A stretch of 43,808 nucleotides of DNA from a bacterium (lineage in GTDB: Bacteria > Bacillota_I > Bacilli_A > Izemoplasmatales > Izemoplasmataceae), in NCBI GenBank assembly GCA_018400875.1, contig JAGYLV010000005.1, positions 1 through 43,808 on the forward strand, in the 5' to 3' direction. The position numbers and the translations under genes were made by a program. Shown here one piece after another: positions 6,444 to 22,575 of the stretch (the stretch's first letter is position 1; each line of letters begins with the position of its first letter). The notes below the pieces were generated by a model. The model saw only the letters and a program-made list of their open reading frames with translations. It was not told where the DNA came from and ran no database searches.

Positions 6444-7567
6444 TTTTCCTAGTCATTGGTGGGTGGGCCCTGATGATTGCGCTCAAATATAGCCGCTTAA
6501 AAAAAGGATTACTAGACATTTTATGGGCCGGAGCCATCACGGTTTTTTATGGGCTTGTGCTTTTTGATACGGTACCTTTTTTCGCAGGGCCAGAATGGAT
6601 TATTTATGGCGGGGCTTTAGGGACACTCCTCTTTTTTAATCTCGGGAGTGTCATCAAAGGTCAAGACGATTCACTGACGTATAAAGATTTAGAAACGAAA
6701 TACCATCACCTGGTTCAAAGTTCCGAAAATTTACGGAACCGGTTCTTAGGCACCTTAGATGTTTTAGAAGATGGACTCATCTTCCAAGATCATGAAGGCG
6801 GACTCTTTTTAACAGACCCCGCGCTTAAGTTATTTGGATTGCGCGAGGCTGAAATCGACGAAGACACTTTTTTATCCAAACTTCACCCCGATGATTTACC
6901 CACCTTAAAAGAGGTGTGGGAAAAAGCCCAAAAAACGCAAAAAAAATATCATACCAAGTACCGAGTTCAATCGGGACATAGTTGGCTATGGATGGAAGAA
7001 ATCGGCATCAGTTTGAGGGTGGATAAACATCCGATGGCCATCCGCCAAGTGCGCGGTGCCGAAGTCCGTTTGTTTCCCAAAACGGCCGTGGATGTGTTAA
7101 ACTATCTTCCCCAAGAAAGCGACTTAGACGCGCATCTTTTGAGCCTTCATCAAAAGGAAACCCCGGTCACTGTGGTGGCCATGCGCTTGACCAATATTCC
7201 GGGCATTAATGCCAAATATGGGCGGGATGTGGGTGACATGTTGATGGGGGAATTCTTAAAAAAAATGAAGTTTCATTTTATGAAACAAGACGCGATTTAC
7301 CGACTCCAAGGCATCTTATTTATGATGGTCATCCAAGACCTTCGTAAAGCCGACATGTTAGAAAAAGCCCTCAAAGAAGATAGCTCACTCTTACAAACCA
7401 CGATTGATATGGGCGGGATTAAAGAAAGTGTGTATCCGTATTTCGGGGTGGTTCATGTGAAAACCTTTGATCGCCACGCCCTTGATATTAAAACCCATGC
7501 AATCGATGCGTTAAGACTCTCCTTGCAAGAAGACCTACAAGAAAACTTCACCATCCAAGAGGTGTAA
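6440..7567 (+). CDS. Membrane PAS / degenerate GGDEF signalling protein (GdpP-like without hydrolase)
   Basis: The product is 375 aa. Three hydrophobic segments (about 1-16, 26-47 and 52-70) are followed by a short helical linker, a PAS-like domain (about 100-205; LDVLEDGLIFQDHEGGLFLT, then LHPDDLPTLKEVW) and a GGDEF-like domain (about 240-365). The GGDEF domain keeps the fold-defining GRDVGDMLMGEFLKKM stretch. Its active loop is lost: where RxGGDEF should be, the sequence reads RLQGILFMMV, so it should not make c-di-GMP. This order (TM, PAS, degenerate GGDEF) matches the N-terminal half of the c-di-AMP phosphodiesterase GdpP, but the DHH/DHHA1 catalytic half is absent and the gene ends cleanly with TAA. 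The c-di-AMP synthase lies two genes upstream. A sensory or scaffold role is plausible but is an inference. Confidence 0.65.
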   Translation: MIFLVIGGWALMIALKYSRLKKGLLDILWAGAITVFYGLVLFDTVPFFAGPEWIIYGGALGTLLFFNLGSVIKGQDDSLTYKDLETKYHHLVQSSENLRNRFLGTLDVLEDGLIFQDHEGGLFLTDPALKLFGLREAEIDEDTFLSKLHPDDLPTLKEVWEKAQKTQKKYHTKYRVQSGHSWLWMEEIGISLRVDKHPMAIRQVRGAEVRLFPKTAVDVLNYLPQESDLDAHLLSLHQKETPVTVVAMRLTNIPGINAKYGRDVGDMLMGEFLKKMKFHFMKQDAIYRLQGILFMMVIQDLRKADMLEKALKEDSSLLQTTIDMGGIKESVYPYFGVVHVKTFDRHALDIKTHAIDALRLSLQEDLQENFTIQEV

Positions 7568-8168: not shown

Positions 8169-8391
8169 AGAAATTGAAAAACAAGCGCGCGTCATCATCA
8201 AAAAACTCAGACCGTACATCAACCGCGATGGCGGAGATATTAAGTTTGTGAAATATGAAGACGGCATCGTCTTTGTCCAAATGCTCGGTGCCTGCGTAGG
8301 CTGTGCGATTGTCGATACCACCTTAACGGATGGTGTGGAAGCCATTTTATTGGAAGAAGTGCCAGGTATCATCGGCGTTGAACAAATCTAA
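8158..8391 (+). CDS. NifU-like Fe-S cluster scaffold (YutI type)
   Basis: A 77-aa single-domain protein of the NifU C-terminal family, which holds or transfers Fe-S clusters in the cytoplasm. The characteristic IKKLRPYINRDGGDIKFV start and the cluster-binding CxxC in LGACVGC are present. The start is ATG 8158, preceded by GAGGAGGAAACCG; an in-frame ATG at 8143 would add five residues but has no ribosome site. It lies between yutD and a YutG-like gene, as in Bacillus, and overlaps the latter by one base. Confidence 0.9.
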   Translation: MNPEEIEKQARVIIKKLRPYINRDGGDIKFVKYEDGIVFVQMLGACVGCAIVDTTLTDGVEAILLEEVPGIIGVEQI

Positions 8392-8900
8392 TGGAACGCT
8401 CACCCTCACGTTTAGAAGATCTCGATAAGCGCAATGTGGTCGTTGAACGCATGCGTGAACGGGGTGTGGATTTAAATTCGATCGCCGCCATCACCCTCGA
8501 TTTACAAAGCCCATACATCGAAGGGCTTGATTTTGAGACGTGCCTCGATCACGTCGAACGCGTGGTCCGTAAGCGAGAAGTGCAACATGCGATTTTAACC
8601 GGCCTTGAACTCGACATCCTCGCCGAAAAAGATCTGCTTTCAGAGCCCCTCGCCTCCATCATTAAAAATGATTATGGCCTTTATGGCATCGATGAGATTT
8701 TGGCACTCGCGATCGTCAATGTGTATGGCTCCATTGGCTTTACCAATTTTGGCTATGTCGATAAAAAGAAAATGGGCATCATTAAAGATTTAGACATCGA
8801 AGGTAAAAAACCCGATAAATGCCATACGTTCTTAGATGACATTGTGGGAGCCATTGCGGCGGCAGCAGCGTCATCAATAATCACTCATCGATACGGATAA
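8391..8900 (+). CDS. YutG / phosphatidylglycerophosphatase A-like protein
   Basis: A 169-aa protein of the YutG/LtrC branch of the PgpA family. Recognisable conserved stretches are KREVQHAILTGLELD, GLYGIDEILALAIVNVYGSI, GFTNFGYVDK, and the C-terminal FLDDIVGAIAAAAAS with its paired aspartates. PgpA proteins dephosphorylate phosphatidylglycerophosphate. YutG-type members lack part of the membrane region, so enzymatic activity here is inferred from family only. It is the last gene of the operon, ending at a terminator. Confidence 0.8.
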   Translation: MERSPSRLEDLDKRNVVVERMRERGVDLNSIAAITLDLQSPYIEGLDFETCLDHVERVVRKREVQHAILTGLELDILAEKDLLSEPLASIIKNDYGLYGIDEILALAIVNVYGSIGFTNFGYVDKKKMGIIKDLDIEGKKPDKCHTFLDDIVGAIAAAAASSIITHRYG

Positions 8901-8921
8901 AAAGAGAGAAAGCCTCTTTTT
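8899..8921 (+). terminator. terminator of the 4356-8900 operon
   Basis: AAAAAGAG (8899-8906) pairs with CTCTTTTT (8914-8921) across a 7-nt loop, starting in the stop codon of the YutG-like gene. The stem is A/T-rich and therefore of medium strength. Confidence 0.6.
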
Positions 8922-8936
8922 GGGCCTAAAATATGT

Positions 8937-8944
8937 GCTATAAT
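8937..8944 (+). promoter_or_regulatory. extended -10 promoter upstream of the broken gene / pgi
   Basis: TGCTATAAT (hexamer 8939-8944) lies 22 nt before the ATG at 8967, with GTGAGGT as ribosome binding site. It matches the other TGCTATAAT promoters in the window. Confidence 0.55.
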
Positions 8945-8966
8945 ACGCCATAGAAAGTGAGGTATC

Positions 8967-9346
8967 ATGCAAGTTGAGATATTGTCAACGGCGAATAACA
9001 GCGCTAAAACCAGGGTATGGCGCATCTGGCCGTAAGATTGATGAAAATACCACCGGCCCAATTCACATCTGAGCTTCCAATCAATTTGTTCGTATGTGGA
9101 AGATTACGTAGAAGCAAGGTGACAAGATCGGGATTTAAAAAGTGATTGATAATATTGTGGATGACGGAAAAATTCTCATTGTCTTACAAGGCGCTTCTAC
9201 AAAAAGAAAACGGTATAACATTGAACTTGAAAGTGGTTTTAAACCGCTTGTGGAGAAATGTTAGAAAACTCGCTGGAAAACGCCCAAAAGATAGCGAATA
9301 GTGCTGTTTTTTTTTTGGGAAAAAAAACTCATATAGGAGAAAATAG
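8967..9346 (+). pseudogene. Broken or mis-sequenced gene, product not identified
   Basis: A promoter and ribosome site lead into an ATG, but the reading frame stops after about 22 codons (MQVEILSTANNSAKTR...). Protein-like fragments then alternate between frames: GRKIDENTTGPIHI, then DNIVDDGKILIVLQGAS and KRYNIELESGFKPLVEK, before the next gene starts at 9347. The fragments suggest one gene of roughly 110-125 codons with several indels. I do not recognise the family. It shares the indel-rich character of the adjacent first half of pgi, so the defect may lie in the sequence and not in the organism. Confidence 0.5.
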
Positions 9347-10662
9347 ATGAAACTTGATACCACGTACGTCCGTTCGTTTATTCTGGATGAGCTTTCTATG
9401 CGTCCACGGAAAAGATGCTGTTTTAAATGCATTTGATTCCTTGCACGATGGCACGATTAAAGGCCTGGGATTTTTCTTTTAGGGTGGGCTGCCCAATCCC
9501 TCTGAGTGAAAAGACGCCAGAAAGACTATTAAAGCCAAAAGAAAAATCCAAGATGCTGTAGATGTCTTGGTCGTGTTATTGGCATCGGAGGCTCTTACCT
9601 TGGAGCCAAAGCTGCCATGGATGTGCGCGAGTCCCCATTTTAATGATGACTCCGTGAAGCTGTATTCGCCGGCCATCAGCATATCGGCGGGCTTATTTAA
9701 GAACTCAGTGCCTATTTAAAAACAAACACTTCGCTATTAATGTAAGTATTCTAAATCCGGAACGACCACCGGAACTGGCCTCGCATTCAGAGTAATAAAA
9801 CGGCCTGATTGCGTAGGGCCTGAAAAAAGCGCAATCACTGATTGTAAGGCGACGACCGATCCTGAGCGGGGCGTTAAGAACACCTCGCCGATCAAGAAGG
9901 CTATGAGACGTTTGATGTGCCAAATGACATTGGGGACGTTTTTCCGTCTTTTCGGTCAGCGTTGGGATATTCCCCATGGCAGTCAAAGGCATTGATGTTA
10001 AGGCGTTTTTAAAAGGGGCCAGTGATGCATCAAAGACTTATCAAGAAAATCCCGCAGCGCCAGTTGAGTATGCGACCATAAGGCAAAGTTTATACCGCCT
10101 CGGGAAGAAACTGGAAATTTTTGTTTCCTATGAACCGAAACTACGCTTTACAGCTGAGTGGTGGAAACAACTCTTCGGCGAAAGTGAAGGTAAAGACGGA
10201 AAAGGCCTCTTTGTGACGAGCGCTGGATTTTCAACGGATCTGCATTCTTTGGGTCAAATGATTCAAGAAGGGGAAAAAGTCTTTTTCGAAACCGTGGTTT
10301 CCGTGAAAGAACCGCTCAGTCACTTGCGCGTTCCCATCGATCAAAAAAACCTGGATGGACTCAATTATTTAGCCGATCAACGGTTTGAATGGGTCAATGA
10401 AAAAGCGCGTATCGCCACCCGCATTGCGCATGTGGACGGCGATGTTCCAAATGTCCATATTGAGCTGGATAAACTCGATAGTTATCACTACGGGGAGCTC
10501 CTTTATTTCTTCTGTGTGGTCGTCGCTTTAAGCGGGGCGTCCAGTGGGGTCAATCCGTTTGACCAACCTGGCGTTGAAGCCTATAAAGTCAATATGTTTG
10601 CGCTCCTTGGAAAACCTGGATTTGAAAAAGAAAAAGCGGAAATTGAAGCCAAAAATAAATAA
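9347..10662 (+). pseudogene. pgi: Glucose-6-phosphate isomerase, N-terminal half frameshifted, C-terminal half intact
   Basis: Interconverts glucose-6-phosphate and fructose-6-phosphate in glycolysis. The ATG at 9347 follows ATAGGAGAA. From 9347 to about 9935 the pgi sequence is recognisable only by switching frames: DAVLNAFDSLHDGTIKG, VIGIGGSYLGAKAAMDV, ELSAYLKN, FAINV, then SGTTT. From about 9936 a single open frame runs to 10662. It contains FSVFSVSVGIFPMAVKGIDV, the signature WWKQLFGESEGKDGKGLF, FSTDLHSLGQMIQEG and the final GVNPFDQPGVEAYKVNMFAL. The longest intact product starts at ATG 9976 (228 aa), about half the usual 430-450 aa, and lacks part of the sugar-phosphate site. Errors cluster at homopolymers (e.g. 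GGGG for expected GGGGG near 9932), which favours sequencing or assembly error over old decay. Confidence 0.9.
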
Positions 10663-22135: not shown

Positions 22136-22166
22136 CGCAATCTTTACGCGAAAGAAAAAAGAAACC

Positions 22167-22194
22167 TTGCATTATTATGCGTATGGTGTATTAT
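22167..22194 (+). promoter_or_regulatory. promoter of the cold-shock gene
   Basis: TTGCAT (22167-22172), a 16-nt spacer and TATTAT (22189-22194). It predicts transcription from about 22201 and a leader of about 94 nt, long for this compact genome. Confidence 0.6.
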
Positions 22195-22200
22195 AAGAGT

Positions 22201-22294
22201 GAACTTAAACGAAATATTGTGATGAGTATGGTTTTTCCATTCTTCAGCACCAATGGAGTAATTTAAGCACCTTTAAAGAATGGAGGAACACAAC
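22201..22294 (+). promoter_or_regulatory. structured 5' leader of the cold-shock gene
   Basis: The segment TCCATT (22236-22241) can pair with AATGGA at 22252-22257 (6 bp, 10-nt loop). It can also pair with a second AATGGA at 22279-22284 that contains the first bases of the GGAGG ribosome site, or through CCAT with ATGG at 22228-22231. These pairings exclude each other, which would suit a temperature-responsive leader as known for E. coli cspA. The pairings are seen; the function is inferred. Confidence 0.45.
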
Positions 22295-22495
22295 ATGGCA
22301 ACTGGTACAGTTAAATGGTTTAATGCAGAAAAAGGCTTTGGCTTCATCACCACTGATGAAGGTACTGACGTTTTTGCTCATTACTCACACATCAACAAAG
22401 AAGGCTTCAAAACTTTAGACGAAGGCGAAAAAGTAGAATTCGAAGTCGTTGAAAGTGAAAAAGGCCCCCAAGCAGAAAATATTAATTCACTTTAA
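22295..22495 (+). CDS. Cold-shock protein, CspA/CspB family
   Basis: A 66-aa single cold-shock domain, an RNA chaperone that melts secondary structure. Both RNA-binding motifs are visible: [12 protein letters not shown] (RNP1, residues 7-18) and VFAHYSHI (RNP2). The start is ATG 22295 preceded by TGGAGGAACACAAC. It is monocistronic, with a long leader and a strong terminator, the usual layout of a highly expressed csp gene. Confidence 0.97.
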
Positions 22496-22501
22496 TGTTT
22501 T

Positions 22502-22531
22502 AAAAATCAACCTTCGGGTTGATTTTTTTTT
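22502..22531 (+). terminator. rho-independent terminator of the cold-shock gene
   Basis: AAAATCAACC, TTCG tetraloop, GGTTGATTTT and a run of T directly after the stop codon. Confidence 0.92.
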
Positions 22532-22575
22532 ACCCAAAATTGACAGGGTCTCATCATGCAGGAGCGCCTTAAATT

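Follow-up and report, generated by a model that had tools for sequence, protein, structure and literature searches.

A sharply bordered burst of small insertions and deletions across pgi in an Izemoplasmatales-like draft genome is almost certainly an assembly artefact

Introduction

Does a broken reading frame in a draft bacterial genome record the loss of a gene from the living cell, or an error in the sequence? The question is raised by pgi, encoding glucose-6-phosphate isomerase, and the gene preceding it in the draft of an Izemoplasmatales-like bacterium, where both are interrupted by a burst of lesions while the adjoining sequence reads cleanly. Residual indels are a recognised problem of long-read metagenome assemblies, seen as truncated predicted proteins, and residual indel errors have been discussed for rumen metagenome assemblies, with the IDEEL check (PMC6785717). 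Here we compare the locus with intact orthologues from the same genus, and search the draft for further stretches of the same kind.

Materials and methods

The window, i.e. the whole stretch of DNA analysed, is one complete contig (C31) of 43,808 bases from a draft (G000) of 662 kb in 35 contigs, most likely derived from a metagenome, with estimates of 81.5% for completeness and 0.08 for contamination. Intact orthologous proteins of a reference genome from the same genus (G002) were aligned protein-to-DNA with frameshifts allowed. This replaced plain DNA alignment, which at 70-80% identity was noisy with paired indels. The counts of frameshift steps are minima, as adjacent compensating lesions merge in the alignment. 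A control alignment of G002 DNA with G001 protein gave no frameshift steps.

Patches were sought with a three-periodic coding HMM over 374 kb of the draft, of which the window forms part, in place of a simple scan for gaps between ORFs, in which spurious opposite-strand ORFs masked the patch. Five stretches flagged by the HMM were tested, each of which has a syntenic counterpart of orthologous DNA in the same genus. Genes in these stretches were named mostly by Pfam, argS by TIGR00456 and the DEAD helicase by sequence alone. A hydrolase on C35 was left out of the counts, its reference being out of frame (10 stops, 45% identity).

Results

Extent of the patch

Frameshift-tolerant alignment to the G002 orthologues places at least 27 frameshift steps in the interval 8976-9932, i.e. 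within 957 bases at a density of 2.8 per 100, and none in the flanks (Table 1). If lesions were scattered uniformly over the window, all 27 would fall in one such stretch by chance with a probability of about 1e-42. The burst is likewise visible in DNA alignment, and the earlier note's description of indels with sharp borders over pgi and the gene before it is thus borne out. The remaining frame changes in the window seen by the periodic coding HMM are junctions between listed ORFs. Separately, 408 bases between two ORFs (22136-22543) contain no 90-codon open frame, and the HMM raised no patch flag there.

Lesions that leave the frame intact extend the patch slightly on either side. At about 8876-8890 the window reads SSIITH, compared to SSIAH or SSVAH in relatives carrying the motif, and this extra codon among the conserved last residues of the upstream PgpA/CobZ-like gene forms the left border. 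At about 9960 another extra codon gives FSVFSVSVG, compared to FSVFSAVG in same-genus Pgi. On the basis of these two lesions we draw the patch as approximately 8876-9966. The earlier note's view that reading is perfect from about 9936 therefore stands for frame-breaking lesions, the last of which is at 9932, but overlooks the extra codon near 9960.

Despite these lesions both genes remain recognisable. The small S1-domain gene is 87% identical in aligned codons to a 108-residue G002 orthologue, which itself matches PF00575 (E 6.9e-19). In the comparison with a close relative's pgi called for by the earlier note, made here with G002, all 17 frameshift steps lie at 9389-9932, with none beyond, and the C-terminal half (9976-10659) is 88% identical to its G002 counterpart over the part present on the G002 contig. 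This intact portion matches positions 220-447 of the 448 in NF010697, the glucose-6-phosphate isomerase family model.

Table 1. Features of the pgi locus and error patches elsewhere in the draft (the first four rows give positions in the window)
Feature	Location	Strand	Observation
PgpA/CobZ-like gene	8391..8900	+	upstream; in frame throughout, 0 frameshift steps (aligned part 8391-8897)
Error patch	8876..9966		dense small insertions and deletions, excess substitutions; clean on both sides
Small protein gene, one S1 RNA-binding domain	8967..9298	+	entirely within patch; 10 frameshift steps, 8976-9285
pgi, glucose-6-phosphate isomerase	9347..10662	+	N-terminal half scrambled to ~9966, C-terminal half intact
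Patch	C1:72942-73891 (L150)		frameshift steps: MFS transporter 15, queA 8
Patch	C2:11966-14108 (L116)		frameshift steps: Gfo/Idh oxidoreductase 20, ECF-S riboflavin transporter 14, DEAD helicase 11
Patch	C30:6700-8819 (L144)		frameshift steps: purine permease 3, unnamed protein 13, purB 22
Patch	C33:11357-12180 (L146)		frameshift steps: dinB 26
Patch	C35:2205 to at least 2916 (L148)		frameshift steps: argS 29

Recurrence of the patch on other contigs

The pgi locus is one of several. In the 374 kb scanned, at least five more patches, alike in signature and of similar density, lie on five other contigs, each carrying 23-45 or more frameshift steps. Their borders fall within genes and they run across neighbouring genes on opposite strands, so that the bursts are indifferent to gene borders and strand; they are indifferent also to essentiality, as the sole argS found in this 81.5% complete draft is among the scrambled genes. 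Only 2 of 175 frameshift events lie beyond the drawn borders, and genes covered in part are clean outside the patches. Roughly 50 kb sampled across three same-genus relatives yielded no patch of this kind in the same HMM scan.

A stretch at C2:2308-4312 (L116) is a probable further patch, in which pieces in different frames resemble one glycosyltransferase; two fragments from it gave no match in Pfam, and it is left uncounted. Other stretches that the HMM called non-coding look ordinary, with short ribosomal-protein-like genes on L137 and a tRNA cluster on L145. Equally ordinary in appearance is a purine riboswitch in the L144 stretch, which lies inside the C30 patch (6775-6873, minus strand), still scores above the Rfam threshold and adjoins the purine permease gene.

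Error signature

Inside the six patches deletions outnumber insertions, 109 to 64. The earlier note had placed the lesions often at homopolymers, and this is not upheld, as 81 of 173 events (47%, event positions being approximate) lie near a run of three or more, compared to 45% of all patch positions. This excess of deletions over insertions is unlike raw PacBio reads and would lean towards nanopore, whose errors, however, are often expected to favour homopolymers, a preference that these approximate positions do not reveal.

Differences from G002 fall at codon positions 1, 2 and 3 in 23, 13 and 52% inside the patches, and in 14, 7 and 49% outside. Their concentration at third positions is retained, and the genes in the patches were therefore under selection until recently. 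The earlier suggestion that few amino acids have decayed is broadly right, although identity to G002 is nonetheless lower inside the patches than outside (0.76 versus 0.86).

Discussion

We conclude with high confidence that 8876-9966 is an assembly artefact, in which, most likely, single-molecule long reads were used uncorrected to join or fill the sequence and were left unpolished by accurate reads. Four observations argue for an artefact. The patch borders ignore genes; the third-codon-position bias is kept inside the patches; about three frameshifts per 100 bases are accompanied by little loss of protein signal, which is far from substitution-dominated neutral decay; and a cell requires arginyl-tRNA synthetase, yet the only argS found is scrambled, the incompleteness of the draft leaving a small loophole. 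The living cell very likely carries intact genes for both Pgi and the S1 protein.

The principal alternative is real and recent pseudogenization, in which pgi and the S1-domain gene decayed once the lineage no longer needed them. The reading frames are indeed disrupted in the sequence as it stands, no second, intact pgi was found in the draft, and as in bacterial pseudogenes the frameshifted gene remains and is recognised by homology. Nevertheless we consider this explanation very improbable. Lesions in a pseudogene would follow the gene as a unit, with selection relaxed along its whole length, but those in pgi end abruptly mid-gene, leaving 228 perfect codons and no lesion after about 9966, and elsewhere they cross gene borders. 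Pseudogenes would also be expected among dispensable genes, but like bursts strike unrelated and essential ones, and a search of 41 genomes, relatives among them, finds a pgi match kept in 40. Bacterial genes in neutral decay should gather more substitutions than indels, whereas the patches show the opposite, and the density of lesions is too high for a codon-position signature still to be present. The recurrence of the patches, their indifference to gene borders and strand, and the damage to argS are together close to incompatible with pseudogene decay, and sustain the earlier note's preference for an unpolished patch over recent gene loss.

Slightly less probable again is that divergent strains, rather than raw-read errors, were collapsed or chimerically assembled into the scrambled stretch. 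Metagenome drafts can indeed mix strains, but a mixture of intact strains would show itself in substitutions and in-frame changes, and at most in a frame break where two strains meet, rather than in about three per 100 bases through housekeeping genes, and the contamination estimate of 0.08 also speaks against it. Least probable of all is that the living cell itself very recently underwent a mutagenesis that packs dense indels into tracts of 1-2 kb at several loci, inactivating pgi, the S1-domain gene and others in the sampled population: this would account for discrete, sharply bounded tracts at several loci, but the tracts show no regard for gene, strand or essentiality and would inactivate the sole argS found, whereas the diversification systems known so far act on particular genes and make chiefly substitutions.

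If, as we conclude, the patches are assembly artefacts, their confinement to discrete stretches in an otherwise clean assembly suggests that gaps were filled locally with long reads, or that polishing failed locally. Accurate contigs may have been linked by single-molecule reads that were never corrected, or the short reads used to polish a long-read assembly may have missed the patch sites. The lesions resemble the residual indels of single-molecule long-read or hybrid assemblies, in that small frame-breaking indels truncate the predicted proteins while homology remains readable across frames, but differ from them in forming discrete patches of about 0.7-2.1 kb.

The burst is thus almost certainly an ordinary matter of assembly quality and no real biological feature, and its practical value is mainly as a quality flag for the draft. 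Such patches can be flagged without reads, by a scan for loss of coding signal combined with frameshift-tolerant alignment to the orthologues of relatives. The genes pgi, argS, purB, queA, dinB and others in this draft should not be called lost or pseudogenes, and this bears on claims of reductive evolution in the Izemoplasmatales and their Mollicutes relatives.
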